A DNA stretch of 64,000 bases, taken from Phycisphaerae bacterium. GTDB lineage: Bacteria; Planctomycetota; Phycisphaerae; Phycisphaerales; SM1A02. Below, one piece after another: positions 1,243 to 19,933 of the stretch. The translations under genes and the position numbers were made by a program. Location of the stretch: NCBI GenBank assembly GCA_016845245.1, contig JAERSY010000059.1, positions 1-64,000 on the forward strand. Reading direction: 5' to 3'. Positions within the stretch are counted from its first letter, which is position 1; each line of letters begins with the position of its first letter. Under the pieces are notes generated by a model, which saw nothing but the letters and a program-made list of their open reading frames with translations, ran no database searches and had not been told where the DNA came from.

Positions 1243-1269
1243 AAGAGTTTATGCAGTGGGTTGCCCCAC

Positions 1270-1275
1270 TATAAT
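1270..1275 (+). promoter_or_regulatory. -10 element of the nuoD promoter
   Basis: A perfect TATAAT lies 12 bases before the nuoD ATG at 1288, giving a predicted leader of about 5-6 bases. No good -35 is visible at the expected distance. The site lies in the 45-base gap after the permease stop, so the nuo genes probably have their own promoter. Confidence 0.55.
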
Positions 1276-1287
1276 GCCCCTCTAACC

Positions 1288-2580
1288 ATGCCGTATACGA
1301 TTTCACCATTAGAAGAGGCCTACGATCTCAGCATTGAGACGCTTGATGAGTTGCAGGGCCGTGCAGAAGTTGCTGACCGATGGATTCTCAACTTCGGACC
1401 GCAACACCCAGCAACACACACAACGCTTCGACTTGTGCTCGAACTCGATGGTGAACGAATCGTTCGCGCAACACCCCACATTGGATATCTGCACAGCGGT
1501 TTTGAAAAACTCGGTGAACATCACAACTTCAATCAGTACGTCTGCACGACGAGCCGTATGGATTACGTTGGTCCAATTGTGAACAATATTGCATGGCACC
1601 ATGCTGTTGAAACATTGCTTGACATTGACTTAACGCCACGTTGCAAAGTGATTCGTACGATTCTTGGCGAACTTGGACGAATCCAAAACCACCTTTTATG
1701 TGTTGGTGCTGCAGCGCTTGACCTTGGTGCATTTACTGGGTTCTTGTACGGATTTAACGAACGGGAACACATTTACGACATCATGGACTTTATCGCGGGT
1801 CAACGGTTCCACCCCGACTACACACGTGTTGGCGGTTTGAAGAACGATTTGCCATGCGAAAAGACATTTGTTGAAATGGTGACGAACTTCACCGACAAGC
1901 GGATGCCAAAAGCAATCGGTGATATCGAAACATTGCTCAATACGAACCGCATCTTTATCGACCGAGTTGAAGGTGTCGGCATCATTTCAGAAGCAGAAGC
2001 GACGGCGTGGTCACTGACAGGCCCGCTTGCTCGTGCATCTGGAGTCAAACGTGATATTCGGAAAGCAGAACCATATCTTTGCTTTGCAGATAACTGGGAT
2101 GGGCAAGGCGCAACGCCAGTTGAATTCCAGATTCCCATTGCAACGAGCGGTGATTGCCTTGCTCGTTACCACGTTCGGTTAGAAGAAATCAAACAATCAT
2201 GCCATATCATTAGCCAACTCATCCACAACATTCCAGGTGGGTCAGTTGATGCGCTCCCGAGTTCAGGGATTCAAATGCCTCCAAAAGAGCAGGTGTACAA
2301 CTCGATTCAAGGCACGATTCAACAGTTTGAACTCGTCATGCCAAACCGTGGGTGGGAATCACCTGTCGGTGAGGTCTACAGCGCAATTGAGGGACCCAAC
2401 GGAGAGTATGGTTACTTTGTGGTTGCGGATGGTGGTCCTTGTGCATGGCGTTGTGCGACTAGACCATGCTCATTTATCAACTTCCAAACATTTGCAAAAA
2501 TGTTTGAAGGGCATCAACTTGCTGACCTTGTAGCTGTGCTCGGTTCACTTAACATTATTGCAGCGGAGCTCGACCGGTAA
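1288..2580 (+). CDS. nuoD: NADH-quinone oxidoreductase subunit D
   Basis: 430-residue 49-kDa subunit of respiratory complex I, on the peripheral arm next to the quinone site. The family signature NFGPQHPATH is near residue 35, followed by PHIGYLHSGFEKL; the C-terminus ends ELDR as usual. The ATG at 1288 is preferred over an upstream in-frame TTG at 1261 because a TATAAT lies between them. nuoE starts 9 bases after the stop. NuoA, B and C, which normally precede NuoD, are not upstream here. Confidence 0.97.
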   Translation: MPYTISPLEEAYDLSIETLDELQGRAEVADRWILNFGPQHPATHTTLRLVLELDGERIVRATPHIGYLHSGFEKLGEHHNFNQYVCTTSRMDYVGPIVNNIAWHHAVETLLDIDLTPRCKVIRTILGELGRIQNHLLCVGAAALDLGAFTGFLYGFNEREHIYDIMDFIAGQRFHPDYTRVGGLKNDLPCEKTFVEMVTNFTDKRMPKAIGDIETLLNTNRIFIDRVEGVGIISEAEATAWSLTGPLARASGVKRDIRKAEPYLCFADNWDGQGATPVEFQIPIATSGDCLARYHVRLEEIKQSCHIISQLIHNIPGGSVDALPSSGIQMPPKEQVYNSIQGTIQQFELVMPNRGWESPVGEVYSAIEGPNGEYGYFVVADGGPCAWRCATRPCSFINFQTFAKMFEGHQLADLVAVLGSLNIIAAELDR

Positions 2581-2589
2581 GGAATACGT

Positions 2590-3123
2590 ATGGCTTGGAA
2601 GGCAAAACAATCTGCTCAACTCACCATCGAACAACGAGATGAACCATATCTCACAAAAGAGTTGTTAGACAAGATTAAGAATGACATCATGCCACGCTAT
2701 GCGACCGGCCAAGGCGCGCTCATGACGACATTGCATGAAGTGCAACACAAGTATGGCTACATTCCATGGCAGGCAATGATTGAGATTGGAGATGTCCTTG
2801 GCATCACTGCAGCCCAAGTTGCAGACGTCGTCTCATTCTATGAAGACTATCACAGCGAACCAATGGGCAAATACGTCATTGGCGTGTGCCAATCAATTGC
2901 TTGTGAAGTGTGCGGACACCAAGCGCTGATTGATCATTTAAAAGAGACGCTTGGCATCGATGTTCATGAAACAACTGATGACGGTATGTTTTCACTATTA
3001 GGTATGGAATGCCTAGGTTCATGTGACAACGCGCCTTGCGCACTTGTGAATGGCAAACAACACAACAATCTTTCAATTTCAGAAGTTGATAAGCTTGTCG
3101 CGGAGTGTAAGAGTAACGGATGA
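2590..3123 (+). CDS. nuoE: NADH-quinone oxidoreductase subunit E
   Basis: 177-residue 24-kDa subunit that carries the [2Fe-2S] cluster N1a of the NADH module. The cluster ligands are visible as a pair in CQSIAC and a second pair in CLGSC, the usual thioredoxin-like arrangement. Starts 9 bases after nuoD; the stop overlaps the next small gene as ATGA, so translation is probably coupled. Confidence 0.96.
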   Translation: MAWKAKQSAQLTIEQRDEPYLTKELLDKIKNDIMPRYATGQGALMTTLHEVQHKYGYIPWQAMIEIGDVLGITAAQVADVVSFYEDYHSEPMGKYVIGVCQSIACEVCGHQALIDHLKETLGIDVHETTDDGMFSLLGMECLGSCDNAPCALVNGKQHNNLSISEVDKLVAECKSNG

Positions 3124-3320
3124 TGGCAGTGAAGAATGACAAGCCACTCATGCGATGCCTCGGCGAGTTTGTCGGACATGTTCTGACTGCGGTTCGCAAA
3201 GATGTGAACGCGAAAGAAGTTCACCGCACCATCGAAGAGAAACAAGAAGGCAACATCACACTTCGTCGCACGACGATTGATGAAATGGTCATTCATGAGA
3301 AGGAGTCATCCGATGGATAA
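3120..3320 (+). CDS. small unknown protein between nuoE and nuoF
   Basis: 66 residues, not recognised. It begins with an ATGA overlap on the nuoE stop (a second in-frame ATG follows at 3123), and its 3' end overlaps the start of nuoF at 3313 by 8 bases. Being locked between two complex I genes by overlaps at both ends argues that it is a real translated gene. The protein is charged and soluble, with no signal peptide, membrane segment or cysteine motif (one Cys, in MRCLGEF). Possible roles include an assembly helper or lineage-specific accessory of the NADH module, but that rests on position alone. Confidence 0.68.
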   Translation: MMAVKNDKPLMRCLGEFVGHVLTAVRKDVNAKEVHRTIEEKQEGNITLRRTTIDEMVIHEKESSDG

Positions 3321-4635
3321 GCAGTTTCTCATGAGAAACATTCCTGCGAAACGGGAAGAGCGAAAACTTATCTCCTACGCTGAGTATGTTGAACGCGGCG
3401 GCTATGAAATGCTTAAGAAAGCACTTCTGATGCAACCAGCTGACATCGTTTCAACGATTAAGGACGCAGAGTTACGCGGTCGTGGTGGTGCGGGATTCCC
3501 TTGCGGAATGAAGTGGTCGTTCTTGCCAGAAGCAGATGGAAAACCTCGCTACTTATGTATCAACTGCGACGAAGCAGAACCGGGTACGTTTAAAGACCGT
3601 TTACTTGTTGATTTCGATCCTCATTCAGTCATCGAAGGCATTGCCATTGCATGTTACGCATGTAAGCTTGATGCGGCGTTCTTCTTTATTCGTGGCGAAT
3701 GGGCTGAACAAGCCAAGGTCATGCAAGATGCAATCAATGAAGCATATGAGCATGGTATTTTTGGCAAACAGGGCTTGATGAATGGTGCTTCTGACTTTGC
3801 GGTTGAGTGCACACTTCACCGCGGTGCAGGTGCATACATCTGTGGTGAAGAAACAGCACTCCTTGAAGCAGTTGAAGGCAAACGTGGTTGGCCACGAATC
3901 AAACCGCCATTCCCAGCAGTCAGCGGACTGTTTGGAAGACCAACGATCATCAATAATGTAGAAACGCTCGCAGCAGTACCGCTCATTCTTGAACATGGCG
4001 TCGAGTGGTGGCAATCCTATGGTTGTGAATCATCGATTGGTGGAGCGGCAAGTTATGGTGTGAAACTCATGGGCGTGTCGGGTCACGTCAACAATCCCGA
4101 TGTTTTTGAAGTCCCACTTGGCATCACGCTCAGAGACCTCGTCAATAATTATGCAGGCGGGATGAAAGATGGAAGAGCGTTCAAAGGCGCCATTGCAGGC
4201 GGTGTGAGCATGGGCATTCTTGGCCCAGATCAGTTTGATGCTGAAATGGATTTTGACATCGGCCGTAAGTACGACGTCATGGGACTCGGCACAGCGTGTC
4301 CAACAGTCTTTGATGAGAATACCGACATGGTTGCCGTCGCACGGAACATCGCTCGATTCTTCAAGAATGAATCGTGTGGTCAGTGCACGCCATGTCGAGA
4401 AGGCGCTGATTGGATTTACAAACTCCTTGTGCGAATCGAATCGGGCAATGCACAATTGAAAGACCTCGACCAACTCCTAGAAGTCGCCGGTTCAATGGGC
4501 ATCATGCCCGGAACAACGATTTGCGGGCTCTCTGATGGAAACAACTGGGCAGTACGCACAATCGTGAACAAGTATCGAAGTGAGTTTGAGGCTCGTTGCA
4601 AGCCCTCACTTGTTCCGGTAACCGCAAATCCGTAA
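3313..4635 (+). CDS. nuoF: NADH-quinone oxidoreductase subunit F
   Basis: 440-residue NADH- and FMN-binding subunit of complex I. Visible signatures: the glycine-rich NADH-binding RGRGGAGFP near residue 57, GAYICGEETALLE, and the [4Fe-4S] motif ESCGQCTPCREG. The start at 3313 is chosen because GGAG lies 7 bases upstream and homologues begin close to this point; the longer frame from 3277 would add an unlikely N-terminus. No nuoG or membrane-arm genes follow; ybeY is next after a 58-base gap. Confidence 0.97.
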   Translation: MDKQFLMRNIPAKREERKLISYAEYVERGGYEMLKKALLMQPADIVSTIKDAELRGRGGAGFPCGMKWSFLPEADGKPRYLCINCDEAEPGTFKDRLLVDFDPHSVIEGIAIACYACKLDAAFFFIRGEWAEQAKVMQDAINEAYEHGIFGKQGLMNGASDFAVECTLHRGAGAYICGEETALLEAVEGKRGWPRIKPPFPAVSGLFGRPTIINNVETLAAVPLILEHGVEWWQSYGCESSIGGAASYGVKLMGVSGHVNNPDVFEVPLGITLRDLVNNYAGGMKDGRAFKGAIAGGVSMGILGPDQFDAEMDFDIGRKYDVMGLGTACPTVFDENTDMVAVARNIARFFKNESCGQCTPCREGADWIYKLLVRIESGNAQLKDLDQLLEVAGSMGIMPGTTICGLSDGNNWAVRTIVNKYRSEFEARCKPSLVPVTANP

Positions 4636-6525: not shown

Positions 6526-7695
6526 ATGAAACACCTCATTTTTGCTGTGGTAGTGACATCGATTGCCCTCACAGGATGTAAAAAAACGAAGACAGTTGCC
6601 GTTCAAGACGAGCCCCGAACACTTGAAATTGATGAATCGACTCAAGCGATGATGAAAGTCATTGTCAACGGTGAAGAGATGGACATTGATGCGCTTCCGA
6701 TTGCTGAAGTCATCAGAAACATCAACATTGATGGCTTAGGCGGTGAAATGGAAGTTGAAGTCATGGTTTCTGGCGATGGCTCAACTTGTGATTTATCAGC
6801 ACTGCAATTCTGTGGTGACGCAAAAGCGGATGTTTGCAAAGATGTTCAGATTGAAGCGATTGCTGACATGATTTTTGAAGATGAACATGGCAATGTGTAC
6901 AGCATGAGCACAAATGGTTTTAGTCCTGAGGATATGCATGGCAATGCGATGGGATGGGTTGATGCAAAAGATTGGCATGGAAAAGATATGCCACACATGC
7001 ATGACAAAGCCATCGTGATGCACAAAAAGATGCACATGGCTGGTGCACATGGCAAAGATATGGAAGTCGCCTGGCACTCAATGGGGCACCCACACAAGAA
7101 GGGTGAATGGGTTGGCTTTAAGGGTGATTTCCATCACGGCGGCGACGTGGAATGCCCTTACTTACAACGCGAGTGTGAAGAACACGAAAGAAGAGCGCAT
7201 GAAGAAGACCACTGGCAAGAACGAGAACATGAAGAAGAGTTTGAGTTCATGCATAAAGTCAATCTTTACAACGAAGTTGGTCACCATTTAAGTGAATCAG
7301 ATGCAATGGCAATCTTTGGCGTGCACATGCTTCGCGACAACATCGATCCAGAACTTCGTCTTCACATGCTGCATGGCATCATCGAAGCAACATTCGATAG
7401 AGAACCCGGGCGAAACGCAGCGTTACTCGTTGCAATTGAAACGCTCATGGAAATGGGTAATGAAGAGCATGCATCGTGGTACATGGCAGAACTTGTGATT
7501 TCAAACTCCGACCATGGTCACGTGCCTTGGGAAGAAGATGGATATGAGCATGGGCATGATGAAGACGATGGACATGCGCATGACCACGATGACGACCATG
7601 GACATGATGACGATGAAGGACATGACCATGATCACGATGATGATTGGGATGTTCACGATCACCCGCACCCCCACGGAGATCATGCCCACGATTAA
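6526..7695 (+). CDS. His/Asp-rich predicted lipoprotein, unknown function
   Basis: 389 residues. An N-terminal lipoprotein signal peptide ends in the lipobox ALTGC, predicting a lipidated cysteine at residue 18. The middle (residues 125-250) is rich in Met, His, Asp and Glu, with HGKDMPHMHDK-type stretches. The last 60 residues are almost only His, Asp, Glu and Gly, with about 17 histidines. Such tails bind Zn, Ni, Cu or Co in other proteins; metal buffering or sensing at the envelope is an inference. An AAAGGA ribosome site lies 11 bases upstream. Its stop interlocks on TTAA with the convergent aminopeptidase gene. No named family recognised. Confidence 0.82.
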   Translation: MKHLIFAVVVTSIALTGCKKTKTVAVQDEPRTLEIDESTQAMMKVIVNGEEMDIDALPIAEVIRNINIDGLGGEMEVEVMVSGDGSTCDLSALQFCGDAKADVCKDVQIEAIADMIFEDEHGNVYSMSTNGFSPEDMHGNAMGWVDAKDWHGKDMPHMHDKAIVMHKKMHMAGAHGKDMEVAWHSMGHPHKKGEWVGFKGDFHHGGDVECPYLQRECEEHERRAHEEDHWQEREHEEEFEFMHKVNLYNEVGHHLSESDAMAIFGVHMLRDNIDPELRLHMLHGIIEATFDREPGRNAALLVAIETLMEMGNEEHASWYMAELVISNSDHGHVPWEEDGYEHGHDEDDGHAHDHDDDHGHDDDEGHDHDHDDDWDVHDHPHPHGDHAHD

Positions 7696-17788: not shown

Positions 17789-19933
17789 ATGAAGGGTGGA
17801 TTCCATTCCATTTGGTACGTCATTCAGCAAGCAAGGCGAGCTGGGGGCTTGCGTGCGATGTGGAAGGCGATGCGCGCAAAGAACGCATGTAAGACTTGCG
17901 CCTTTGGAATGGGCGGTCAAAAAGGTGGCATGGTCAATGAAGCTGGAAAGTTTCCAGAGTTCTGTAAAAAATCTGTGCAAGCGATGGCTGCAGACATGCA
18001 AGGCGCAATTTCAGAGTCACTCTTTGAGACGTATTCGATTTCACAGTTAGGTTCGATGTCTCCTCGCGAACTAGAGTCGCTTGGGCGGCTTGTGTTTCCA
18101 CTTTATGCTGGTCCGCTTGACATGCATTACAAACGCATTTCTTGGGATGAAGCATTTCAAAAAGTGTCATCGGAAATGAAAACAACCGACCCCGCGAAAT
18201 CGTTTTATTATTGCAGTGGGCGTTCAAGTAACGAGGCAGGATTTCTATTGCAAGTCGCAGCGAGAGTTCGCGGCGCGCACAACATTAATAACTGTTCGTA
18301 TTACTGCCATCAAGCAAGTGGAGTCGGACTTACAAGCGTAACGGGTTCTGGCACAGCAACAGTTGTGCTTGAGGACATTGAACGCGCTGATTTGATTTTT
18401 TTAATTGGGTGCAATCCCTCTTCAAACCATCCAAGGTTGCTTCGAAACTTAGTTGATTTGCGAAGGCGAGGCGGGAAAGTCATCGTCATTAACCCACTAA
18501 AGGAACAGGGTCTTTGCAATTTTAAAGTTCCAAGCGATGTTAGGAGCTTATTGTTTGGGTCAACAATCTCCGACATCTATGTGCAGCCAAACATCGGTGG
18601 AGATAGCGCACTATTGCTTGGCATCATCAAATGGCTTGATGAACATGATGGTATTGACGAACGATTCGTTGAAAACCATGTTGACGATTTTGAAGGTGTC
18701 CGCAAGCAAGCAAGAGCGCACGATTGGGATTGGATTGAACAAACGAGCGGTGTAAGCGTCGAAACAATTACTCAGGTCGCAGAAGTGTACAAAGCATCAA
18801 GCAACGCTATATTTTGCTGGGCAATGGGCATTACGCACACCAAAGGCGGTGTTCATGGTGTTCGAATGATTGCAAACGTCGCACTTGCTAGAGGAATGGT
18901 CGGGAAGAAAGGCGCAGGCCTTCTTCCGCTCAGAGGACATTCGAACGTCCAAGGCATGGGCACGATTGGTGTTGTGCCAGTCCTCAAACCCGAAATGAAA
19001 TCTGCGATTGAGGATTCGCTTGATGTCTCTATTTCAGAAACCCCTCCAAATCATCGCGGCGACACGATGGCGTGCATGGAAGCTGCAAACAATGGAGATG
19101 TTGAATTTGCGCTTTGTCTTGGCGGGAACTTGCTTGCGTCGAATCCAGACACGAAGTTTGCGCACCAAGCGATGTCGAAGATTCAAACAACAGCGTACAT
19201 TTCTACAACGTTAAACAAGGGCCATTTTCTTGGAAGAGGACGTGAAACGATTATCTTCCCAACACTTGCAAGAGACGAAGAGTCACAAACAACCACGCAA
19301 GAATCCATGTTTAACTTTGTGAGACGAAGTAGTGGTGGTTCACCGAGACATGAAGATGTATTCAGCGAAGTCGATATTATTGTTTCACTTGCAAGCGATG
19401 GCGTTGATGGTGTTGAGTGGGAACAGTTCAGAGATTATCAAGCGGTCCGTCAGTTGTTGGCACAATGTCTGAATGGTTTTGACCCAGACGAAGAACATCA
19501 AATAAAGGGTCGCACATTTCACACGCCAACTTTTCATACACCGACTGGCAATGCCAAAGCGCACGTCGACGAGTTACCAATACCAAAAGAGATTGGAAAA
19601 AACGAATTGCGACTCATGACCATTCGTTCGGAAGGCCAATTCAACACAGTTGTGTATGAAGAAGAAGATGTCTTTCGGAATCAGACGCGGCGAGATATTG
19701 TCATGATGCATCCTGAGGATATCAAGCAACTGAACTTATCAATTGACGAATGCGTCAGAGTTGAGGGTCCCACTGGATCGTTGGACGTCATCGTGAGAGC
19801 CATTGATATTGCGCAAGGAAATTGCGCGATGTATTATCCAGAAGCAAACATATTGCTTTCAACAGCAATTGATGATGAGTCACGAACACCGATGTTTAAG
19901 GGTGAAGTTGTCAACATCAGCAGGCGTGTTTAA
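17789..19933 (+). CDS. FdhF/YdeP-family molybdopterin oxidoreductase
   Basis: 714 residues. The N-terminus has CKTC followed by a later Cys. The molybdopterin domain follows, with SSNEAGFLLQ, NCSYYCHQASGVGL (candidate Mo-ligand Cys) and IGCNPSSNHPR; a C-terminal MGD-binding domain begins near residue 615. These features fit the YdeP-like branch, whose substrate is unknown. Ordinary codons are used throughout, so it is not a selenoprotein. A duplicated five-residue unit FHTPT occurs near residue 575. Nearby MobA and MOSC supply or use the same cofactor. Its last 54 bases overlap mobA on the other strand. Confidence 0.92.
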   Translation: MKGGFHSIWYVIQQARRAGGLRAMWKAMRAKNACKTCAFGMGGQKGGMVNEAGKFPEFCKKSVQAMAADMQGAISESLFETYSISQLGSMSPRELESLGRLVFPLYAGPLDMHYKRISWDEAFQKVSSEMKTTDPAKSFYYCSGRSSNEAGFLLQVAARVRGAHNINNCSYYCHQASGVGLTSVTGSGTATVVLEDIERADLIFLIGCNPSSNHPRLLRNLVDLRRRGGKVIVINPLKEQGLCNFKVPSDVRSLLFGSTISDIYVQPNIGGDSALLLGIIKWLDEHDGIDERFVENHVDDFEGVRKQARAHDWDWIEQTSGVSVETITQVAEVYKASSNAIFCWAMGITHTKGGVHGVRMIANVALARGMVGKKGAGLLPLRGHSNVQGMGTIGVVPVLKPEMKSAIEDSLDVSISETPPNHRGDTMACMEAANNGDVEFALCLGGNLLASNPDTKFAHQAMSKIQTTAYISTTLNKGHFLGRGRETIIFPTLARDEESQTTTQESMFNFVRRSSGGSPRHEDVFSEVDIIVSLASDGVDGVEWEQFRDYQAVRQLLAQCLNGFDPDEEHQIKGRTFHTPTFHTPTGNAKAHVDELPIPKEIGKNELRLMTIRSEGQFNTVVYEEEDVFRNQTRRDIVMMHPEDIKQLNLSIDECVRVEGPTGSLDVIVRAIDIAQGNCAMYYPEANILLSTAIDDESRTPMFKGEVVNISRRV

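Follow-up and report, generated by a model that had tools for sequence, protein, structure and literature searches.

Whether a frame of 66 codons lying between nuoE and nuoF in a Phycisphaerae bacterium encodes a protein, and whether such a protein belongs to complex I, is the question raised by this locus. The window (the whole stretch of DNA analysed) spans 64,000 nt, positions 1–64,000 on the forward strand of contig JAERSY010000059.1 in assembly GCA_016845245.1 (Phycisphaerae bacterium).

The reading frame between nuoE and nuoF

A preliminary description had placed a 66-residue frame wedged between nuoE and nuoF, overlapping the former by ATGA and the latter by 8 bases, and the frame and both overlaps were found as described (Table 1). 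In the first overlap the small-gene ATG begins at 3120 and the nuoE TGA occupies 3121–3123; a second in-frame ATG at 3123, which leaves a 1-base overlap with nuoE (TGATG), may be the actual start in place of 3120. The same description tied translation of the frame to the NADH module, which needs one correction: AAGGAG lies 7 bases 5' of the nuoF ATG at 3313. With this good ribosome-binding sequence of its own, nuoF need not hang wholly on the small gene for its translation, and coupling between the two is possible, not obligatory. Against NCBIfam models, the window NuoF scored 516 bits with TIGR01959, below the cut-off of 558.65, and 452 bits with NF010120, above the cut-off of 389. The true start of nuoD may lie downstream of the listed TTG.

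Table 1 Features of the nuo operon around the small gene, in window coordinates
Feature	Position	Strand	Basis and remarks
nuoD (49 kDa subunit), neighbour upstream of nuoE	1261..2580	+	PF00346, E 5.9e-91
nuoE (2Fe-2S subunit)	2590..3123	+	PF01257, E 2.8e-46; NF005722, 141.6 bits against cut-off 141; ATGA overlap with small gene
Small conserved gene, 66 aa	3120..3320	+	Predicted amphipathic helix ~10–26, beta-hairpin ~31–43 / 46–57
AAGGAG, likely nuoF ribosome-binding site, within small gene	3300..3305	+	Read off the sequence
nuoF (NADH/FMN, 4Fe-4S subunit)	3313..4635	+	PF01512, PF10589 and PF10531 above cut-off; 8-base overlap with small gene

The frame is a real gene. A protein search of the window's own genome and 40 relatives found homologues in 32 of the 41, and a broader profile matched in 251 of the 269 Phycisphaerales genomes (order named from record titles) of completeness 90% or more, from some of which it had been built. 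Third codon positions were variable at 58 of 62, compared with 42 of 62 for first and 26 of 62 for second positions. The preliminary description had named a near-neutral dN/dS, or the lack of a related frame in the same slot in relatives, as evidence against the gene; instead, the ratio was about 0.10 (0.097, at a dS of 1.3) when the window was compared with its nearest congener, and the slot between nuoE and nuoF was occupied in all 13 genomes of the window's genus, its own included, with both neighbours also present at 39 of 80 named loci. Another close pair gave a dN/dS of 0.13 (dN 0.023, dS 0.177). Values for nuoD, nuoE and nuoF between the window and the nearest congener were 0.010, 0.038 and 0.012, respectively; the small gene evolves faster than these neighbours, yet is clearly constrained by purifying selection. 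A frame between nuoE and nuoF that is open by chance would suit the many spurious frames listed for this region (one of them, at 2964..3296, is antisense and 110 aa long), but conservation across the order, the low dN/dS and retention of the same protein outside the nuoE–nuoF slot leave that explanation next to no probability.

Taxonomic range and genomic context

The suggestion that the gene would be lineage-specific was borne out within narrower limits, these being the order Phycisphaerales and not the whole class. Phylum-wide searches with two profiles, the second broader, found matches in 37 and 39 of 294 genomes, all of them within the order (37 and 39 of its 44 members). Neither profile matched in the 10 genomes from the class's other families, and none of the 240 remaining phylum genomes had a match, giving 0 of 250 non-order genomes sampled in all, most of which were counted in aggregate without individual listing. 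Within the order, only three of the 251 positive genomes had more than one match (G242, G413 and G216, with two each); the pair in G216 represents pieces of one frame, and the second match in G242 is marginal. An N-terminal motif pattern, blind to the alternative N-terminus in families f5 and f6, was run against one genome per species for 84,980 species and matched 113 stretches; 88 of these passed confirmation, and 80 were retained. Record titles for the retained loci name Phycisphaer- or Planctomycet- organisms, except for two MAGs with a Phycisphaerales-type locus, L163 (titled Chitinophaga pinensis) and L166 (titled Vicinamibacteraceae); both record titles look wrong, and the Vicinamibacteraceae label of L166 probably is.

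The recurrent companions of the small gene are nuoE and nuoF. Among the first 32 loci, 27 had a same-strand nuoE upstream of the small gene and 22 had both neighbours. Among the 80 named loci, a same-strand nuoE preceded it in 54 (within 100 bases in 49) and nuoF followed it in 43 (within 100 bases in 33), with neither found in 22, some of these stretches ending at contig ends. Families f1, f4, f5 and f6 have one recurrent neighbourhood, consisting of nuoE and mostly also nuoF: the f5 and f6 loci that hold the small gene have it between the two, and in f4 it follows nuoE, with nuoF absent within 3 kb. In part of family f2 the small gene is solitary, with varied neighbours, and nuoE and nuoF lie elsewhere in the genome. 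Four genomes of genus g14 carry small gene, nuoE and nuoF in three separate places (in G034, nuoE at 0.37 Mb, the small gene at 1.91 Mb and nuoF at 3.35 Mb). Partial links persist even where the trio is scattered, which supports nuoE and nuoF as the companions: the small gene lies approximately 1.5 kb from nuoF and far from nuoE in G263 and G271, and beside nuoE with nuoF on another contig in G306. Similarly, at L126 and L161 it is away from nuoE and still near nuoF. Apart from the exceptions in f2 and the 14 of 264 NuoF-positive genomes that lack a match, the small gene is encoded or inherited together with nuo genes.

Candidates for a second conserved partner were rejected. Twenty proteins neighbouring solitary copies belonged to unrelated families or to none, and a sugar-kinase-like protein (named by eye) upstream of the small gene in g14 had no match at E 1e-6 at the 80 named loci. 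No natural fusion to NuoE or NuoF was found in 12 genomes whose match is surrounded by long open frames; checked by hand, nuoE was in another frame in 8 of 8 and nuoF started after the stop of the small frame in 6 of 6 of the stretches holding each.

The gene is missing from part of the order. A NuoF-family match, made with a model that can also match NuoF-like hydrogenase subunits, was present in 264 of 269 order genomes, and the 18 genomes without a small-gene match comprised 14 that were NuoF-positive and 4 that were NuoF-less. Six of the 14 were inspected: G238 has a divergent copy in place after nuoE, and G029, G033, G332, G333 and G339 have no such frame between nuoE and nuoF. Because some genomes retain nuoE and nuoF without it, the small gene is apparently not strictly required for complex I. 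Among the five NuoF-less genomes, four also lack the small gene and G479 keeps a weak match (5.6e-5). Joint absence with NuoF speaks only weakly for co-inheritance, as three of these four genomes still have NuoG and NuoH, so that assembly gaps explain the joint absence better than biology does. In a NuoD plus NuoE tree of 25 genomes, G029, G033, G332 and G339 fell inside f6 (support 94), and four f5 genomes, all with the small gene in place, branched before the rest of the order. The simplest reading is that the gene was present in the Phycisphaerales ancestor and was later lost, with an uncertain number of losses given the weak nodes within f6 (33–68). No NuoF indel tracked the presence of the small gene among 19 aligned NuoF sequences, 3 of them from no-match genomes.

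These searches also touch on how complex I is annotated in the order. A passage of a 2024 survey describes NADH dehydrogenase as mostly predicted missing in Phycisphaerales because nuoF and nuoG lacked annotation (PMC11266412). Though most order genomes have a NuoF match, only one of the 269 has a NuoF above the TIGR01959 cut-off, and scores below the cut-off may explain the absence stated in that passage. Of 13 genomes examined for NuoG, 12 from the order and 1 from outside it, 11 had a match and two (G379 and G479) had none; all matches were below the TIGR01973 cut-off, and the middle of the profile (~333–511) was unmatched in the main copy. The NuoF matches (264/269) and NuoG matches (11/13) thus bear on the 'missing NADH dehydrogenase' statement in the same passage (PMC11266412).

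Several further features were observed. The only NuoF match above the family cut-off among the 269 genomes is a second copy in G508 (contig 35:2339-3550, 611 bits), which possibly represents a second complex I, or contamination. NuoG proteins that are short and without the middle of the TIGR01973 profile are encoded in G000 (contig 30:11960-13390, open frame of 542 aa) and its relatives, and G080, outside the order, also has a short one (541 aa). On the forward strand of the window, 17789–19933 encodes a 714-residue molybdopterin oxidoreductase (PF00384, PF01568) that is also a weak NuoG match, and 6526–7695 encodes a 389-residue protein with no Pfam match and a His/Asp/Glu-rich tail of ~60 residues, perhaps metal-binding.

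Conservation and predicted structure

AlphaFold2, run with a 76-sequence alignment, predicted a helix at residues 10–26 (17 residues) followed by a hairpin at 31–43 / 46–57, with a mean pLDDT of 82 (92–95 over residues 31–50 and 88 over 51–60); with a pTM as low as 0.44, the model does not fix how the helix lies relative to the hairpin. The helix was amphipathic relative to shuffled sequences in 119 of 124 sequences, and its hydrophobic side carries a nearly invariant G15 and mostly G19 and F17. Conservation was highest at R49 (129/129), E55 (128/129), G15 (127/128), T51 (125/129), R50 (124/129) and R12 (122/128). As R49, T51, I53 and E55 alternate, they should share one face of the second strand. 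The hairpin face formed by positions 34, 36, 38, 40, 49, 51, 53 and 55 had a mean entropy of 0.88 bits versus 1.68 for the opposite face, with faces assigned after the invariant positions were known. Of 128 sequences, 82 have S or N in place of C13, and no conserved metal-binding pattern is present, making a structural role likelier than a catalytic one.

Other parts of the protein vary. The linker between helix and hairpin (positions 26 to 34) ranges from 1 to 40 residues and is proline-rich in L069, and the N-terminus resembles SWFQKLCRNTGLMIH in families f5 and f6, in place of LMRCLGEFVGHI. Five sequences, L021, L022, L023 and L025 (f4) and L143, have a charge-swapped hairpin in which R50 is replaced by E and D54 by R, together with R39, and R49, T51 and E55 are kept; these five may derive from a single event. 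The R39/E50/R54 set fits the predicted hairpin register, but 7 other sequences carry both R39 and R50, and a mutual-information test of the register gave a weak result. Two short conserved modules joined by a variable linker, as modelled here, might be expected of a small subunit clasping a larger surface.

Neither Pfam nor NCBIfam has a model that the 66-aa protein matches above cut-off. Searched against Pfam, 31 relatives gave single weak matches only (best E 0.0046), and two profile searches of all PDB chain sequences gave 2 matches at E up to 1 and 4 at E up to 5, none of them a complex I chain. Fold searches of the PDB with the model returned no match, which is weak evidence given so small a model. 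With nuoE and nuoF present as separate genes beside it and with no family match, the protein stands outside the 14 core subunits of complex I. In literature searched by titles and abstract beginnings, no publication on this gene was among the matches listed, nor was a description of complex I from the planctomycete phylum.

Possible roles in the NADH-input module

The preliminary description proposed a complex I subunit or assembly factor, which the slot and the order-wide range make the best reading of the genomic evidence; the evidence does not separate the one from the other. We place at about even odds that the protein is an order-specific accessory subunit, small and cytoplasmic, that belongs to the NADH-input (NuoEF) module of complex I and dates back to the Phycisphaerales ancestor, and infer that it binds NuoE and NuoF. 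Counting against this reading are the solitary copies in part of f2 and the genomes that keep nuoE and nuoF without the gene. Such a protein would be synthesised beside NuoE and NuoF and would dock on them, with the helix seated in a groove by its hydrophobic side and the specific contact coming from the conserved hairpin face (R49, T51, I53, E55). It could then keep NuoE and NuoF, and perhaps also the short NuoG, joined to one another, stabilising the NADH-input module in the role that NDUFS4 or Nqo16 is thought to play in other lineages.

Accessory parts of this kind differ between lineages. According to passages in two papers, NDUFS4, NDUFS6 and NDUFA12 keep the NADH module in place in Paracoccus and mitochondria, a task that falls to Nqo15 and Nqo16 in Thermus or to extensions of core subunits (PMC11522691, PMC8762328). 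In a bacterium, the first three are described as apparently stabilising this module (PMC11522691). These ancient alphaproteobacterial and mitochondrial proteins resemble the proposed subunit as accessory subunits stabilising the NADH module, but they sit at the N/Q interface with other architectures (a four-strand sheet and helix in NDUFS4, a zinc-bound sheet sandwich in NDUFS6, and helices with a three-strand sheet in NDUFA12), and no sequence or fold relationship to them appeared in the Pfam, NCBIfam, PDB sequence or PDB fold searches. Similarly, the text of PMC11522691 lists Nqo15 and Nqo16 of Thermus thermophilus, PIMT of Paracoccus and MSMEG_2064 of Mycobacterium smegmatis as lineage-specific extra subunits, the stabilising parts differing by lineage. 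Nqo15 is frataxin-like and PIMT a methyltransferase, and the PDB searches linked the protein here to none of the four by sequence or fold, a missing fold match being weak evidence for so small a model. A functional analogy with these accessory subunits is the most that could be proposed.

Another parallel is NDUFV3, a 9–10 kDa subunit of vertebrate mitochondrial complex I that is described as lying in the cleft between NDUFV1 (=NuoF) and NDUFV2 (=NuoE), as a coil-helix-coil of proposed origin within vertebrates and with only minor defects on knock-out (PMC8762328). The same passages note that the C-terminus of Paracoccus NuoE overlaps the place of NDUFV3 in the NuoE/NuoF cleft (PMC11522691, PMC8762328). 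Both proteins are small, non-core and lineage-specific, the one here being encoded between nuoE and nuoF and missing in some lineages. In contrast to the coil-helix-coil, a helix and beta-hairpin are predicted here, and the PDB searches gave no sequence match to any complex I chain; the likeness would be convergent at best. A more specific proposal, held tentatively and at somewhat below even odds, is that the gene encodes a fifteenth, order-specific subunit of complex I, 7–9 kDa in size, whose helix and hairpin are unlike any solved subunit of the enzyme. The gene would have entered the operon between nuoE and nuoF in the order's ancestor, and its product, at the NADH-module tip, would have converged with NDUFV3 of vertebrates.

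The main rival to an accessory subunit, fitting nearly as well, is a dedicated assembly factor or chaperone that binds NuoE and/or NuoF while they fold, acquire clusters or dock, and is then released from the mature enzyme. The position of the gene, overlapping nuoE on one side and nuoF on the other, would place such a factor where both proteins are made, and its absence from some lineages that keep nuoE and nuoF could suit a helper. However, the protein has no Pfam or NCBIfam resemblance and so is no known chaperone or cluster-insertion factor, and nothing in the data is specific to a transient over a permanent role; overall, an assembly factor is judged rather unlikely.

A function unrelated to complex I, with the operon merely shared, would account for the part of f2 in which the gene is retained as a solitary copy beside unrelated genes. 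It is improbable, however, as the sole recurrent neighbourhood in f1, f4, f5 and f6 is nuoE, mostly with nuoF, and in the solo genomes checked (g14) nuoE and nuoF are themselves scattered. Less probable still is a small regulator of NADH oxidation, either a reversible inhibitor or a tether of NuoEF to another protein through the variable linker. Two conserved modules separated by 1 to 40 residues, proline-rich in L069, would suit a tether or inhibitor of this kind, but no conserved second partner gene was found among the solo-locus neighbours tested and no sensor motif was seen.

Complex I subunits confined to single lineages reveal the various ways in which one core enzyme is stabilised. If an accessory role in the NADH-input module is correct, a small, order-wide, unannotated protein tied to nuoE and nuoF would offer a new handle on the assembly of that module.
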